Counted from the stretch's first letter, positions 14,095-63,783 are shown. The stretch: DNA of 64,000 bases from Sphingobacteriales bacterium (GCA_004293485.1 RDYW01000036.1:24793-88792), one strand, 5' to 3'. The notes: a model not told the origin generated them from the sequence alone. Translations and numbers: made by a program.

Positions 14095-14181
14095 GTAAAA
14101 ACAATGAATAGGATATAAGATAATGTTTTTTTAAGTATATTAAATATTTTTAATTTTTACTTTTAAATTTTTATTTTTAAA

Positions 14182-56390: not shown

Positions 56391-56945
56391 TTATTGTATT
56401 TTAACAGGATAGGTAATATCAAAATCAGTACTTCCTGGGGCTTCGGTACCATCTTTAACGCCTGGCTGGTGGCGTAATATTATTTGTAAAGTTCCGTTTT
56501 TGGCGGTATTTGTATTTACAACAGCCATTAAACCTACGGGGTAATTATTTTTATCTTTATCAGAAATTTGTACTGTTAAAAGATTAGTGCTTGGTTTATA
56601 AACTAATAAATGTTCGTAATCCTCTTCTTCTATTTCTTCGGTAATGTTTTGTACTGGCGTGGCTGTTTCATTAAGTACTTCGGCTATTTCCATATTGTAG
56701 ATTTTGTTGGTAGCTAATTTTATGGTATCAACAACTGGGCCATCCCCGCCTTGTCCATCTAAATCTTTCCAAGTAAAAGTTTTTACATCGGCAGCATTGC
56801 TGGCATTGGTAAATTTAAGTTTAATGGTGGTAATAAGTTCGTTTTCATCTACAGGGGGTAATTCTTTTTTATCTTTTTTACAAGAGCTTACAGCAAACGT
56901 GATTGCCATAAATGCGATAAGTGATAATTTTGTGTTTGTTTTCAT
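56391..56945 (-). CDS. Secreted lipoprotein of unknown function
   Basis: Lipobox (FAVSSCKKDKKELP), 184 aa beta-rich; downstream of the TonB receptor on the same strand. Confidence 0.7.
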   Translation of the reverse strand: MKTNTKLSLIAFMAITFAVSSCKKDKKELPPVDENELITTIKLKFTNASNAADVKTFTWKDLDGQGGDGPVVDTIKLATNKIYNMEIAEVLNETATPVQNITEEIEEEDYEHLLVYKPSTNLLTVQISDKDKNNYPVGLMAVVNTNTAKNGTLQIILRHQPGVKDGTEAPGSTDFDITYPVKIQ

Positions 56946-56982
56946 TTTTTTTAATTTAAGTGTAAATAATAATTAATTGTTT

Positions 56983-59340
56983 TTAAATTTTGCTAGGTAA
57001 ACCTTTGCCAATAGGTATTTGCAAGCGCAGTATAAAGTTTCGGCCAGTTTCATCGGCATAATATCTAAAGCGGTTTAGGTAATCTCGGTATGGGGTATTC
57101 AAAGCGTTTATGCAACTTAAGCTAAGGTTAAAACTGTTTTTACCTAATATTAATTGGCTACTTAGGTCGATATTTAATACTGTTGCTGCATTAGGGGTTG
57201 GTGCATAATCTTGTTCGCGTTTTACACGCCATTGTTTTGCAAAATGATTTATTGTAATATCAATACTGGTGTTTTTTATTTTTTTGCTATCGTTTAAGCT
57301 GGCTTGTATTATCAATGATGCTTTATCGGGCGGTATAAATTCTAAATGGTTATTATTAGCCAAGTTATAAGCCCTTACAAATGAATATTTAACACTCGTT
57401 TTAAAAAATTTATTAAATTGGTATTGAGTTAAAAAATCGGCACCTGTAAATCTGGCATTTACTTGTACGTATGTAAAAGACGGGAAAGCTCCACGTACAG
57501 TTAAAACAGGTTTTAAATCGGGTTTTAAATAAATATAGTTATTTATATGGTTTATATAGGCACTAATTTCTCCTGTTAGTTTGCCATTTGTTTTGGTTAA
57601 ACCTGAGGTAAAATTTATAGATGATTCTTCGCTTAGGTTTTTATCTCCTTTTTCGAACGACCCACTACCGTGATGCACCCCGAAGCTAAATAATTCGTTA
57701 ATAGCTGGTGGTCGCCAAGCTTTGGCTAGAGTACTCGTCCATTTAAGGTGAGGTAATATTTGGTATCCTGTACCAAAAGTTGCACTCACTTGGTCGAAAT
57801 TAAATTGGGGTTGTATTTCGGGGCTATTATCATCTAACACGTTTTGCCTTAATCTTGCTTGCATATATTTATTATCGTACCTCAATCCGCCTTCGAGCGA
57901 TAATTTATTTTTAGTATATTTTTCTATCAAAAATATACCGCCATTATAACTTGTAAAAAATGGTATTAAATATCTACCATCGTAATAATTTTGTTGAAAC
58001 ATGCCTTGCAAACCTACTTTGCCTTGTAAATTTTTGTAAATAGTATGGTCTAAAATAAGTTCGGCATTTTGGGTATTTAAGTCGAATTTTAACTGGTAGC
58101 CTTTATCTGCCGATCCTCTTACCACATCATACTCTTCTCGGTTATTTTGTTGATTGCTGTACTGGGCGTGTAGTATGCCAAAATCCCCCACAGGGTAATT
58201 TATTTTTAATTTAATAAGGTTATGGCTTACATTTTGGTATGGCCTACCTATCTTATAATTAAGGTTTGATTGATTGGAAGGGTCGGGTTTTTCGTTATCT
58301 ATGGCGTTTAGTAAATCGGTAATGCTACCAATGTGCGCCCCCGTAAATATGCCCAATTTGGTATTAAAGGTACTTGCAAAAAGTTCGGTATTTAGTTTAT
58401 TTTGCCTGTAACCTAACGTTAAAGCTGCATTGCGTTCGTTAAAGCCCGTATTTTTTATATAATAATTGGGTGTTTTAGCGTTGCCAGCTATTTTATACGT
58501 AGTTTGTAAACGCCAGCAAAAGTTAGCATTTTTACCTACGGCACTTTCTAGCATGGTAGCCACAGCCCCTTGCCCGTTATTACTTATCGCCACTAAATTA
58601 ACCTGCCCTGTAAGTTTTTTGTTAAACGCTAAGGCGGAAGGTTCTACCAATACTACGCCTCCCATTGCATCCGAACCATATAAAACACTTGCTGCACCTT
58701 TAACCACCGTTATTTGGTTTGCTATAAATGGGTCTATTTCGGGGGCGTGTTCGCTGCCCCATTGTTGCCCTTCTAATCGTACACCGTTATTGTAAATTAA
58801 TATTCTATTAGCGTGTAAACCATGTATAACAGGTTTAGAAATAGTTGGCCCTGTTTGTATAGCGCTTAAGCCGGGTATAGTTTTTAGTGCTTCGCCTAAT
58901 GATAAACCACGAGAAAGTTCCAGCTCCTTACCTTTAAGCTGCGATTGTGTTTGTAGCAGTTTATTTATCCCCCCTTTCGCTTGTACATTTACTTCGGCCA
59001 ATTGCGAGTTTAGTGGATTTAAAAGAACATTTATTTCGGTAGCTGTTTTTTTAATTTGAACCAAAATTTCTTTTTGTTGATAACCTAAAAAGTTAATTTG
59101 TAAGGTGTAGGTATTGCCATTGCACAATTGGTTAAAATGATAATGGCTATCGTCATCAACCACCAAAAACGCACCAATTTCTTTTATAGCAACACTTGCC
59201 CCAGGTAAAATTTCTTTTGTTTTGGCATCTTTTATGGTACCAAAAATTAGGTTATTACAGTTTTGTGCCCATGCGTAACTATACGCATGGGCTACAATAA
59301 TGATGCAAACTAAACCAATTTTAAGAAAAAAGTTAACCAT
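56983..59340 (-). CDS. TonB-dependent outer-membrane receptor with carboxypeptidase-like N-domain
   Basis: FGTIKDAKTKEILPGASVAIKE...; plug: SLGEALKTIPGLSAIQTGPTISKPVIHGLHANRILIYNNGVRLEGQQWGSEHAPEIDPFIANQITVVKGAASVLYGSDAMGGVVLVEP; barrel to C-terminus. Confidence 0.94.
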   Translation of the reverse strand: MVNFFLKIGLVCIIIVAHAYSYAWAQNCNNLIFGTIKDAKTKEILPGASVAIKEIGAFLVVDDDSHYHFNQLCNGNTYTLQINFLGYQQKEILVQIKKTATEINVLLNPLNSQLAEVNVQAKGGINKLLQTQSQLKGKELELSRGLSLGEALKTIPGLSAIQTGPTISKPVIHGLHANRILIYNNGVRLEGQQWGSEHAPEIDPFIANQITVVKGAASVLYGSDAMGGVVLVEPSALAFNKKLTGQVNLVAISNNGQGAVATMLESAVGKNANFCWRLQTTYKIAGNAKTPNYYIKNTGFNERNAALTLGYRQNKLNTELFASTFNTKLGIFTGAHIGSITDLLNAIDNEKPDPSNQSNLNYKIGRPYQNVSHNLIKLKINYPVGDFGILHAQYSNQQNNREEYDVVRGSADKGYQLKFDLNTQNAELILDHTIYKNLQGKVGLQGMFQQNYYDGRYLIPFFTSYNGGIFLIEKYTKNKLSLEGGLRYDNKYMQARLRQNVLDDNSPEIQPQFNFDQVSATFGTGYQILPHLKWTSTLAKAWRPPAINELFSFGVHHGSGSFEKGDKNLSEESSINFTSGLTKTNGKLTGEISAYINHINNYIYLKPDLKPVLTVRGAFPSFTYVQVNARFTGADFLTQYQFNKFFKTSVKYSFVRAYNLANNNHLEFIPPDKASLIIQASLNDSKKIKNTSIDITINHFAKQWRVKREQDYAPTPNAATVLNIDLSSQLILGKNSFNLSLSCINALNTPYRDYLNRFRYYADETGRNFILRLQIPIGKGLPSKI

Positions 59341-59389
59341 CTTAGCTTTGTAGTAATGTTTTATTTGGGTCGATTTTTTAGTGTTTTAA

Positions 59390-60595
59390 CTAATGTGATT
59401 GGCTATTTTCAAACCCAAAAATTGTTAAACGGTACGGTGTATTTGATACTTTTATCTTTTTAATATCCGCTAAATTATTGTTATCAATTTGATATAATTC
59501 GCCCATTTTAGGCATTGTTAAATAGGTATAGCGTTTTGTAGCTTCTAAAGTAGGTTTTTGCTTATCGTCTTTAGCAACTTCGGGCATTACGTTACCTTCT
59601 TTAACTAAACTACCATTGCTTAGATTGTAAATTTTTAATAGTCCGTTATGTAATAATATGTGTAAGTTTTGTCCTTCAAAATCTACTTTACACTGCATAA
59701 TATCTGCACTTTCAAATATTGGCGTTACGGTTTTAGAAGTTGGGTTAATAAAATATGCGCCTTTGGCAGCGGTATAACCAATAAATTTATCAGCTTTTTC
59801 GGCTTCTAAAATTGTACCAAACCAAGCTTTATCAAAGCCAGCAGGATGTGGTATTAATTCTTGTACACCTGCTTGGCTAACCATTAATATACCACTTGCC
59901 GACCCAAAAATTGATATTAAACCATTGCTTGCATTGCCGTGTATGCCTTTGGTTTGTATAGTTGATGCTACTACTTCTACACCATTGCCATCAATAATTT
60001 TAACTCTTTCGGGCAAACTGCCTGCAATCGAACCATCTTTTACCGTAATAGCATAGTTGCCATTATTAAACTTTGTCATGGCGCCATGGTGTGCTAAGTT
60101 ACCTGCCGATATGGTTCTCATTTTTGCACCTGCGGTATGAAACTCGGCTTCGTTGGCAACGCTTAAAGTGCCATCGCCATCGTTAAAAACTATAATTTCG
60201 TTTGCTTTGGTTTTAAAGTGGGTAGGTTTTAAGCCATCGCCTATTAAAGCGCCAAATTTGGGCGTTCCTTTTACATCCACATGGTCGCCATGAAACTCAA
60301 ACCCACTGTCAAAAATTTCTACAGTATTATTATCTCTATGTATAATACTTGCAAAACGCCCCGAACCAGTAGTGTAAAGTGCTGATTTTGCAAATTTAGC
60401 ACTAAATGGAGTTACTTTTCCATCGGCTGGGTTTACCAAACTTAATTGGTTGGTTAATTCATCGCTTACCAATACATTTATATATTTATGTTCGGTATCT
60501 AACAATATAGGTTCTTCGGTTTTATTTTTTTTACAGGCAGCCAAAGCGGTAATAAATGCTAGGGTTAACACTATTTGTAATTTGTGTAATTTCAT
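59390..60595 (-). CDS. AztD-like beta-propeller lipoprotein (putative zinc chaperone-like)
   Basis: Lipobox FITALAACKK; repeated propeller motifs; His/Asp-rich signatures FDSGFEFHGDHVDVKG, KPTHFKTKANEIIVFNDGDGTLSV, NLAHHGAMTKFNNGNYAITV, TKGIHGNAS. The ORF track opens at 60637; the ATG at 60595 fits the signal peptide (MKLHKLQIVLTLAFITALAACKK). Confidence 0.68.
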   Translation of the reverse strand: MKLHKLQIVLTLAFITALAACKKNKTEEPILLDTEHKYINVLVSDELTNQLSLVNPADGKVTPFSAKFAKSALYTTGSGRFASIIHRDNNTVEIFDSGFEFHGDHVDVKGTPKFGALIGDGLKPTHFKTKANEIIVFNDGDGTLSVANEAEFHTAGAKMRTISAGNLAHHGAMTKFNNGNYAITVKDGSIAGSLPERVKIIDGNGVEVVASTIQTKGIHGNASNGLISIFGSASGILMVSQAGVQELIPHPAGFDKAWFGTILEAEKADKFIGYTAAKGAYFINPTSKTVTPIFESADIMQCKVDFEGQNLHILLHNGLLKIYNLSNGSLVKEGNVMPEVAKDDKQKPTLEATKRYTYLTMPKMGELYQIDNNNLADIKKIKVSNTPYRLTIFGFENSQSH

Positions 60596-60614
60596 CTTGT
60601 TTTTGTTTAAAGCC

Positions 60615-60642
60615 AACATTTGCACCATTAAAAGCAAATGTT
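60615..60642. promoter_or_regulatory. 28-bp inverted repeat upstream of the AztD-like gene (candidate operator or 5'-UTR hairpin)
   Basis: AACATTTGC (60615-60623) - N10 - GCAAATGTT (60634-60642), perfect 9-bp arms, 20 bp from the start codon at 60595. Confidence 0.5.
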
Positions 60643-60778
60643 TTTAATAGAAATAAGTAAGTTATTTTATATTTTTTTAATAAATACCATAAATTTAAAC
60701 TGGCATTTATCAAAAAAAGAGCAACAAAAAATCGAGCTATATTTTGTATAACTTGATGGTTGCTGTTAAATAAAAAAA

Positions 60779-61144
60779 CTAGGCTTTGGGTGGGCTATTG
60801 CCCGAAAACAAAGATAAGTGTTTGGATACGTAAAATGCTACAAAATAGGTGTGTAGCAACAATGTTTTGGTAGGTATATTTACATTAAAATATTGTTCAA
60901 CAGGCAATAAATCACCTTGGTTTTTGCTTAAATTGTACTGGCAAATTTCGCAAGTTTTGCTAACTTGAACACTACTAGCTTTGCTAATATGTACACCAAT
61001 ATTGTGCACATTATTACTATCGTTGTGGCAAACATCGTGAGCATGTAATGCCTGAGCAAGCGAAATAAAAACAAATGTACACAACAATAAGTAAGCACAA
61101 ATTATATGCTTTATAGGTTGGGTGTATATATACTTGTTTTTCAT
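60779..61144 (-). CDS. Small exported His/Cys-containing protein
   Basis: 121 aa: N-terminal TM/signal, HAHDVCHNDSNNVHNIGVH, CEICQY, second hydrophobic stretch, C-terminal GNSPPKA. Confidence 0.6.
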   Translation of the reverse strand: MKNKYIYTQPIKHIICAYLLLCTFVFISLAQALHAHDVCHNDSNNVHNIGVHISKASSVQVSKTCEICQYNLSKNQGDLLPVEQYFNVNIPTKTLLLHTYFVAFYVSKHLSLFSGNSPPKA

Positions 61145-61224
61145 TATTTATGCAAAAATGCAAAAAAAATTAATAGCTATGGTTTATTATTTTTAAAAAA
61201 AACCTAATTCTGTATTATTTAATG

Positions 61225-61397: not shown

Positions 61398-62033
61398 ATG
61401 CCCAAGCAACTAGTTATTTGCGATGACCATACACTTTTTTTAAGCGGTATTACCCAACTATTACAAAAACTAGGAAACAATTACGAAATAACCGCTTTTA
61501 GCGACAGTAAAAACTGTCAAACGTATATACAACAACATATAATTGATGTTTTTATATGTGATTTAAACATTGATAATGCCGATGGTTTTGAACTCATAAG
61601 CAACTTAAAACCGTATTTAAAAAACACTAAAATTATTGTACTGAGTGCTTATTTAGAAGATTTTTTGATACAAAAAGCGCAAAAAATGGGTGCACACGCC
61701 TTTTTAAAAAAAGAAACTACCGCTTTAGAATTGATTAATGTAATAGAAGCTGATTTAAACACACCTTTTTACACCAACAAAATCAATAAAAATATTAATC
61801 CATCTTTTGCCCAGTTAGATAACAATACCGCCAATAAATTTAAGCTAACCCAACAAGAAAAACAGATTATTAAACTAATATGCCAAGGGCAAACTAGCCA
61901 ACAAGCCGCCCAACAATTAAACATTAGTAAAACTACCGTTGATACCCACCGCAAAAACATAAACCGCAAGCTAAACATTACCAGTACCAGCACACTTATA
62001 AAATTTGCCAATGAAAATAATTTATTTTCTTAG
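61398..62033 (+). CDS. LuxR/NarL-family response regulator
   Basis: Receiver (VICDDHTLFLSGITQLL...VFICDLNIDNADGFELI...IIVLSAYLED...AHAFLKKET) plus LuxR HTH (LTQQEKQIIKLICQGQTSQQAAQQLNISKTTVDTHRKNINRKL). Confidence 0.93.
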   Translation: MPKQLVICDDHTLFLSGITQLLQKLGNNYEITAFSDSKNCQTYIQQHIIDVFICDLNIDNADGFELISNLKPYLKNTKIIVLSAYLEDFLIQKAQKMGAHAFLKKETTALELINVIEADLNTPFYTNKINKNINPSFAQLDNNTANKFKLTQQEKQIIKLICQGQTSQQAAQQLNISKTTVDTHRKNINRKLNITSTSTLIKFANENNLFS

Positions 62034-63783
62034 TTTTTTATTTTTTACAAATGCTGCGTTTGCACAAAACAAATCAAGTTTACGGGTACAAGCCACTTAT
62101 TATATTGATAGCAATAGTGCCTTAAACCTACAACAGGTAGAAAAACAAAAGTTTACCGCATTTAAAAACAATAGCATTAATATTGGATATAATGATAACG
62201 CTGCCGTTTGGTGCCGCTTTAAAATCACCAATACCAACCCTAAACAATTACAAAAAAGTTGGCTTTGTTTTGATAATAACCACTTAGATAGTATAATAAT
62301 GTACAGTAACGGACTTAGCCAAACCCTAGGCGACCGTACAAAATATACCAGCCCTATTATGGTTACCCAAGCTTTTGAGTTAGCACTTAAACCTAACCAA
62401 ACTAAGGTGGTATATGTAAAAGTTAAAAAATTATACTCGTTCTTAGACTTTGATTACCGCTTTAGTACTTCAAAAAAATTAATAAAACAATCAAATTCAA
62501 AAATTGGGATAATCTCTTTTTTCTTAGGAATGGTATTGCTGCTCATTTTATTTAATAGTGTACTATACATTATTACACATCAAAAAATGTACGTTTTTTA
62601 TATTTTAAATGCAATTATTAGCATAGTTTATGTACTTACCAGTTCGTACTATTTTAAGTGTTTAATTTTTACAGAGTTTTTATATTTTAGCGAAATTAGA
62701 ATTTACAGTGTTGCTCTGTGGTCTATTTCGTTAAATACTTTTATTTCTTGTTTTCTAAATCTTAAAAATACCCAGCCCAATAATTACAAAATAATTATTG
62801 GTTTAAATTTTTTTATTCTTTTTTTAATAATTATTACAATTGTACTTCTTATTTGTGAAGATTATAATACCATTAAAATATTTTTCACACTTGGTTATTT
62901 GCTTTTTGCTTCAAACGTGAGTATAATTTTTATTGTTGCCTTGCGCCAATTAAAAATTGATAAAAAGGCGGCAATGTATATTTTATTATCGTTTTCGCCA
63001 CAGTTAATTTGGGCAATTATACACTTTTTAAAAACCTATAAAGTTATACACGATAATTTATTTCAAGATTGGTTAGTGTTTTTTTGCTTGTACGAGGTGT
63101 TTTTATTTGGCTATGTGTTAACTCAAAATTATATTGCAACATTTATAAAAAACAACCAATTAAACAACGCTGTAATAGTAGAAAAAGAAAACACTTTACA
63201 AACCATTACCCAAACCCAAATACGCGAACGCCGCAACATAGCCAATATATTACATGATGACTTGGGCAGCAAAATAGCACACATAGGGCAGCTTTTGCAG
63301 TTAAATAACCACCTATTGGCCAACCAAAGCATTAACCAACTGGCCGATGATATTAGAGAAATATCGCACCAAATATTACCTAAAGCCCTAGACGATGGCG
63401 CACTAATAGCCAGCCTACATAGCCAAATACACAGCCTAAACGATGGTTTAAAAGCAATAAACATTACATTAAATGGATATGACTTCCCCGAAAAAGTAAT
63501 ACAACCTTGGGTGTACGATATGTACCTTATTAGTATCGAAATTATAAACAATGCCCTAAAACACGGCCAAGCAACCGCTATACAAATAGAGTTTTACCAA
63601 TACGCCAAACATTTTACTTTCCAATACAGCGATAACGGCTTAGGCTTTAAAGTAGCGCAAACCCCCAAAGGCTTTGGGCTTGATAATATTGAAAAACGAG
63701 TGCTATATTACAAAGGTATAATAGAAATAAATAGCCAACCAAACCAAGGTACGGTGGTACAAATAAATTTACCCATAAAATAA
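62011..63783 (+). CDS. 7TMR-DISM sensor histidine kinase (HisKA_3 type)
   Basis: Signal peptide, 7TMR-DISMED2-like extracellular domain, ~7 TM, H-box ERRNIANILHDDLGSKIAHIGQLL, HATPase EIINNALKHGQATAIQIEF...YSDNGLGF. ATG at 62011 overlaps the response regulator by 23 bp. Confidence 0.9.
   Translation: MKIIYFLSFLFFTNAAFAQNKSSLRVQATYYIDSNSALNLQQVEKQKFTAFKNNSINIGYNDNAAVWCRFKITNTNPKQLQKSWLCFDNNHLDSIIMYSNGLSQTLGDRTKYTSPIMVTQAFELALKPNQTKVVYVKVKKLYSFLDFDYRFSTSKKLIKQSNSKIGIISFFLGMVLLLILFNSVLYIITHQKMYVFYILNAIISIVYVLTSSYYFKCLIFTEFLYFSEIRIYSVALWSISLNTFISCFLNLKNTQPNNYKIIIGLNFFILFLIIITIVLLICEDYNTIKIFFTLGYLLFASNVSIIFIVALRQLKIDKKAAMYILLSFSPQLIWAIIHFLKTYKVIHDNLFQDWLVFFCLYEVFLFGYVLTQNYIATFIKNNQLNNAVIVEKENTLQTITQTQIRERRNIANILHDDLGSKIAHIGQLLQLNNHLLANQSINQLADDIREISHQILPKALDDGALIASLHSQIHSLNDGLKAINITLNGYDFPEKVIQPWVYDMYLISIEIINNALKHGQATAIQIEFYQYAKHFTFQYSDNGLGFKVAQTPKGFGLDNIEKRVLYYKGIIEINSQPNQGTVVQINLPIK

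Follow-up and report, generated by a model that had tools for sequence, protein, structure and literature searches.

A putative outer-membrane zinc acquisition operon pairing an AztD-like propeller lipoprotein with a ZnuD-like TonB receptor in a Sphingobacteriales bacterium

AztD, the exported beta-propeller of the AztABCD system, is known from Paracoccus denitrificans and Citrobacter koseri (PDB 6CK1, 6CMK, 6N01). The characterised Paracoccus protein is periplasmic and carries two zinc sites, the first formed by His124, His167 and His218 and the second by His99, His102, Asp104 and the C-terminal His408 (PMC6689063). No mention of TonB or of Bacteroidota was found in the text of two AztD structure papers from the open literature. 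At the outer membrane, the TonB receptor ZnuD of Neisseria binds zinc at a high-affinity site composed of Asp99, His100, Glu340 and His499 (PMC4557270). In the Bacteroidota, the BtuB-BtuG system has a propeller lipoprotein as a lid on a TonB receptor (PMC10404256). CruR of Bordetella and CutF of Rhodobacter are exported DUF2946 proteins heading metal operons, which they control via a Cys motif and a C-terminal, arrest-like proline motif. In CruR, 45 residues lie between CXXC and RAPP, the spacing in the family varies by one or two, and the known cases of this design serve copper control (PMC9426467, PMC9973294).

The window analysed here is a stretch of 64,000 nucleotides from a Sphingobacteriales bacterium (GCA_004293485.1, RDYW01000036.1:24793-88792), the genome assembly of which comprises 2.21 Mb and is 95.5% complete. 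Four same-strand genes with characteristic motifs had been described in the first-pass annotation. All four ORFs were recovered at the places it gave, on the minus strand (Table 1), together with every motif it quoted (HAHDVCH, CEIC, HGDH, FNDGDGT, HHG, GIHG, PVIHGLHANRI and GSEHAPEIDPF). These motifs are not due to chance, as the matches to the AztD and ZnuD models and in phmmer are significant. Transcription proceeds from the leader through the propeller and the receptor to the 184-aa lipoprotein, with gaps of 183, 49 and 37 bp, and an alternative, TTG-extended frame of the propeller begins at 60637. The closest named relative of the window, a Sphingobacteriales MAG (L017, the sister genome below), has an identical order of the four genes, with 81% DNA identity across propeller, receptor and lipoprotein; the flanking DNA differs on both sides. 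Since the flanks differ and the four genes are kept, the unit is the operon, and the regulators at 61398-63783 lie outside the system. These genes encode a LuxR-type response regulator and a 7TMR-DISM histidine kinase and are transcribed divergently from the operon; they were considered as system parts and rejected, being missing beside the L017 operon.

Table 1. Features of the four-gene locus, in positions of the window
Feature	Position	Strand	Length	Remark
Decayed candidate Zur box TGCATTTTTGCA	61151..61162	-		Just before the leader ATG; putative
Leader ORF, small exported His/Cys protein	60779..61144	-	121 aa	CruR/CutF-like design
Leader-to-propeller gap	60596..60778	-	183 nt	Would be a leader-dependent control site if the CruR model applies (PMC9426467)
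AztD-like beta-propeller lipoprotein	59390..60595	-	401 aa from ATG	Both AztD zinc sites
ZnuD-like TonB-dependent receptor	56983..59340	-	785 aa	Carboxypeptidase-regulatory-like N-terminal domain
Small lipoprotein, unnamed family	56391..56945	-	184 aa	Beta-sandwich-like model

The propeller matched no Pfam family in a profile search, and its score against the NCBIfam AztD model NF038015 (84.2 bits, E 7e-24) is below the 400-bit cut-off. When the PDB was searched with phmmer, only the two AztD sequences were matched (E 4.5e-14). The likeness to AztD, originally proposed from motifs, was upheld by structure prediction. An AlphaFold2 model was built from 27 sequences (mean pLDDT 90), and the nine best PDB matches found with Foldseek were all AztD chains, at E values of 1e-24 to 1e-22, with the first non-AztD family following at E 8e-12; TM scores against the AztD structures were 0.83-0.87 by target. 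All metal-site His and Asp residues were also present. The counterparts of site 1 are H126, H169/H170 and H219, all invariant among the 27 sequences, and those of site 2 are the invariant H102 and H105 together with D107 and the C-terminal H401, each kept in at least 90%. As judged from sequence and modelled fold, the propeller is a remote AztD homologue with all seven zinc ligands conserved, and both zinc sites, including the C-terminal His, are common to the two exported proteins, suggesting that the propeller may bind zinc at two sites. It differs from AztD in sharing only about 20% identity, in being a lipoprotein and in pairing with a TonB-dependent receptor, mostly in genomes without an ABC-3 permease. 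Cyanobacterial ZepA was considered as a relative and set aside, as its paper mentions neither a propeller nor AztD.

The lack of an ABC transporter, previously pointed out for the locus, extends to the whole genome. A profile search found neither a ZnuA-type protein (PF01297) nor an ABC-3 permease (PF00950), and PF00950 was also missing from 14 of the 16 other propeller-bearing genomes. In genomes without this permease, the AztD fold cannot serve AztABC. Because the score lies below the curated cut-off and the ABC partner is missing, the protein is named AztD-like rather than AztD. A ZIP permease is carried by the window's own genome.

For the receptor, the proposed kinship with ZnuD is likewise borne out. 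ZnuD was its best PDB match by phmmer (E 5e-19), and the buried zinc-site positions were matched in an alignment with a residue offset of 14. The positions of D99 and H100 correspond to the E-H of WGSEHAPEID, that of E340 to the Glu of NREEY (RxE; placed by eye, the phmmer alignment being shifted by one residue), and that of H499 to the first His of GVHH. All 15 receptors compared retain the acid-His pair and the Glu; the last His appears in the form G(V/I/L)HH or GVNYH. On this alignment, the receptor is ZnuD-like, with the positions of the buried zinc site retained. ZnuD and further TonB receptors under Zur control (Caulobacter znuK/L/M) are its closest known counterparts. In contrast to ZnuD, its TonB-dependent receptor domain is accompanied by a carboxypeptidase-regulatory-like domain (Pfam search), it is encoded beside lipoproteins, and no cluster like the His/Asp-rich extracellular loop 3 was seen in its sequence by eye. 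It also lies far under the cut-off of the ZnuD model NF038289 (114.7 bits, E 5e-33, against 950 bits). Among the curated models, heme/hemoglobin scored 164 bits, ZnuD 115 and copper 96, all under cut-off. It is the sole receptor of its type in its genome. A second TonB receptor family adjoins the propeller or a boxed COG0523 gene at L043:11267-13552, L062:12603-14855 and L160:1-2201, with the plug motif NCNICNTGDIHINGLEGPYT in L062.

The family of the 184-aa lipoprotein has invariant DLDGxG, E-H, H and TD positions, and its model, although mostly confident, gave no significant PDB match. Gene order suggests an accessory partner of the receptor. In one version of the operon in Flavobacterium and Pedobacter, DUF4625 lipoproteins (PF15418) with the motif HHNFDHHTHSTE, such as L096:7145-7615 and its relatives, stand in for the window-type lipoprotein. 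These DUF4625 proteins may be metal-binding partners of the receptor.

A profile scan with one genome per species yielded 80 relatives of the propeller, from Flavobacterium, Pedobacter, Dyadobacter and others; many are from Flavobacterium and hence not independent. In 44 of the 80, as in the window, a receptor belonging to the same cluster is encoded no more than five genes from the propeller. At this range, DUF4625 lipoproteins occur in 37 relatives, window-type lipoproteins in 14 and leaders in 36 according to clustering, with direct comparison adding at least 2. Genes for a Zur-like regulator (9/80), a MerC-like protein (9/80) and a COG0523 GTPase (8/80) were also present. The link between propeller and receptor recurs in Pedobacter, Algoriphagus, a Cytophagales MAG, Mariniflexile and Polaribacter, and a separate sample shows it in further members of the window's family. 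No receptor lies near the propeller in Dyadobacter, in Emticicia or in part of the window's genus. On one contig of the window's own genome, C30, a Zur-like gene, two further COG0523 genes and MerC-like, HisI and nickel/cobalt-type permease genes are found together, and a ZigA-like GTPase on C30 scores 557 bits against a cut-off of 600.

Of the 80 propeller loci, 77 bear the inverted repeat TGCAACAWTGTTGCA, a candidate Zur box of the Bacteroidota. Inverted repeats resembling TGCAACATTGTTGCA occur in the divergent promoter of the Zur-like and leader genes of Flavobacterium and also on C30. From these repeats a weight matrix was seeded, which was refined on the 80 loci and applied with a threshold of at least 17 bits. 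The boxes stand mostly directly before propeller, leader, zur, MerC or COG0523 genes and are often paired, about 38-40 bp apart, and in the shuffled-sequence control, 1.6 Mb contained 10 sites scoring more than 10 bits. As the matrix was refined on the same 80 loci, fair checks come from other sequences. A site was present in 6 of 7 further family members, and 24 pattern hits were obtained from four whole genomes, against 0 with the reversed pattern. The whole-genome boxes adjoin COG0523, DUF3299-like, NRAMP, FUR, P-type ATPase and thioredoxin-reductase-like genes, and in Emticicia one precedes a ZnuD-like receptor and a window-type lipoprotein, away from the propeller. The few whole-genome hits with one mismatch were low-scoring and lay inside unrelated genes. 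The one-mismatch scan of the window's own genome was noisy (22 hits vs 10 in the control), so only exact hits on C30 were used; intact boxes accompany its Zur-like/ZigA-like/COG0523/MerC/HisI group. The box strings were not found as a bacterial operator in the literature searched.

At the promoter of the window's operon, the weight matrix found no scoring box (best -0.2 bits). The leader start of the sister genome has the intact TATGCAATTTTGTTGCATA, and that of the window has TTTTGCATTTTTGCATAAATA. A common operator can be seen in the relatives and on C30, and the copy at the window promoter would be a decayed candidate. Several boxed genes outside the operon were also observed. A lipoprotein full of spaced EH/AH repeats on C30 (L107:13638-14141), with candidate boxes directly upstream at 14161 and 14200, is a possible zinc-buffering lipoprotein. 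In Emticicia, Dyadobacter and the window genome, the box lies at or next to the gene of a small exported protein judged by eye to be DUF3299-like (L159:2629-3087, L155:2139-2747, L107:2832-3284). The propellers of Dyadobacter (L020-L039) stand alone beside MacB-like permeases, usually with a pair of boxes spaced about 40 bp apart ahead of the start codon.

Zinc had been put forward with a question mark, and the survey of neighbourhoods strengthened that reading through the Zur-like, ZigA/COG0523 and MerC neighbours and the common box. Zinc rather than another metal is supported by these Zur-like, ZigA and operator links. That the operon imports copper, heme or some other metal instead is improbable. 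The CXXC/RAPP design of the leader is indeed known for copper control (PMC9426467, PMC9973294), the receptor's top curated model is heme/hemoglobin, and the box is likewise found at an NRAMP gene and a P-type ATPase gene. However, the AztD ligand set is complete, Zur-like, ZigA and COG0523 genes share both neighbourhood and box, and ZnuD itself was initially misread as a heme receptor (PMC4557270).

The first gene encodes a signal peptide, a His cluster, CEIC, 47 further residues, NSPP and two more residues before the stop. It has no Pfam or PDB identity in searches of both. Across 42 leaders, the distance from CXXC to xxPP is 45 in 35, 46 in 1 and 47 in 6, and the proline motif lies close to the stop in all of them, as RAPP in Flavobacterium and KGPP or NSPP elsewhere; the letters RA are not kept. 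Invariant residues are few beyond H34, CXXC, F113 and PP. The DUF2946 profile covers the leader of F. flevense nearly end to end, far under the cut-off, which the leaders of the relatives do not reach (best 12-13 bits), and it has no match in the window genome. The match in design to CruR and CutF, judged from sequence features, is strong. It comprises an exported leader as the first gene of a metal operon that includes a TonB receptor, a Cys motif, a C-terminal proline motif and CruR-like spacing. The differences are the score under the Pfam cut-off, the NSPP motif and the setting, a zinc/Zur operon in Bacteroidota as opposed to the copper sensing of the known cases. The protein could be a true periplasmic or membrane metal carrier with no regulatory role, as its signal peptide, its His residues and its place under the DUF2946 cut-off would allow. 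This is rather unlikely, given a spacing of 45-47 in every leader, close to the family-kept 45 of CruR, with PP near the stop and so few other invariant residues. A metal-sensing leader of the CruR/CutF kind is the more likely interpretation, and the metal sensed may be zinc. RNA structure behind the leader was rejected as evidence. The leader-propeller gap of the window has a folding z of -4.3 alone and -6.2 with flanks, and that of the sister genome -1.6, but 17 control gaps in relatives score lower (mean -3.9) than leader gaps (-3.0).

The position of the propeller can be considered in the light of known surface-export signals, which are C-X-K-(D/E)2 in Capnocytophaga and polar-then-acidic stretches such as SDDFE and SDDDD in Flavobacterium/Bacteroides (PMC5080379). 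Propellers of Dyadobacter have CEKDDE or CDKDDD and those of Flavobacterium CSNDDD at the lipid Cys, and 73 of 79 propellers have at least two acidic residues at +2 to +6; most relatives carry a surface-export-like signal of this sort. In the window and L017 propellers there are no acidic residues at +2 to +6, and the signal is missing; neither the window propeller (CKKNKTEE) nor the small lipoprotein (CKKDKKEL) matches a published motif. Signals of Sphingobacteriaceae were not found in PMC5080379, and therefore the missing window signal says little. The system resembles BtuB-BtuG of Bacteroides, in which a Bacteroidota TonB receptor also stands beside a substrate-capturing beta-propeller lipoprotein. 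The substrate there is vitamin B12, and for the pair described here a complex of receptor and propeller is putative. The window propeller is not close to BtuG, which was one generic propeller hit (Foldseek E 2e-10). A zinc operon with a periplasm-facing propeller is a possible but less favoured arrangement. The protein would then sit on the inner leaflet of the outer membrane, take zinc from the receptor and carry or buffer it for the ZIP permease or periplasmic enzymes, nearer to the role of AztD in Proteobacteria. The periplasmic location of Paracoccus AztD (PMC6689063), the two window proteins without a known export signal, the propellers standing alone under their own boxes in Dyadobacter and Emticicia and the ZIP permease are consistent with it, whereas the acidic residues of most of the family, many matching published surface signals, point outward. 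By analogy, a surface lid is favoured for the propeller family as a whole, and for the lineage of the window the periplasmic alternative stands too.

Taken together, the four genes probably form an outer-membrane zinc acquisition operon in which the propeller works with the receptor. Sequence, predicted structure, ligands, gene neighbours and the common operator together give good support to zinc acquisition. What counts against the reading as a whole is that the export motif and the promoter box are missing in the window, that the heme/hemoglobin model outscores ZnuD and that in some relatives the propeller lies apart from any receptor. Under zinc starvation, a Zur-type repressor would free the promoter in the family, the operator being seen in relatives and decayed in the window. 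The CXXC/xxPP leader may place the downstream genes under further, metal-dependent control, as its match to CruR and CutF suggests. Anchored in the outer membrane, the AztD-like lipoprotein would bind zinc at its two sites and most likely act as an outside capture protein or lid on the receptor, like BtuG with BtuB; its location and the hand-over of metal are what we infer. TonB would power zinc through the receptor into the periplasm, and a ZIP permease, in place of an ABC transporter, would provide the inner-membrane step, as the content of the window's own genome indicates. The complete proposal, with a surface AztD-type lid capturing zinc on a TonB receptor, a Bacteroidota Zur regulon with TGCAACAWTGTTGCA and a zinc-sensing leader gate of the CruR type, is offered only tentatively.

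The system is built from kinds already known, namely AztD, ZnuD and lipoprotein-assisted TonB uptake, and is no new category. The operator candidate is new here, and the AztD-like propeller is paired with a putative outer-membrane zinc receptor instead of an inner-membrane pump. Outer-membrane zinc uptake in Bacteroidota is little described in the literature found. The receptor, propeller, accessory lipoproteins, leader and operator provide a parts list to test in cultivable Flavobacterium, Pedobacter and Dyadobacter. These findings suggest a possible role of an AztD-type protein without an ABC transporter, and would bring bare metal ions into the range of lipoprotein-assisted TonB uptake, alongside sugars, B12 and iron.
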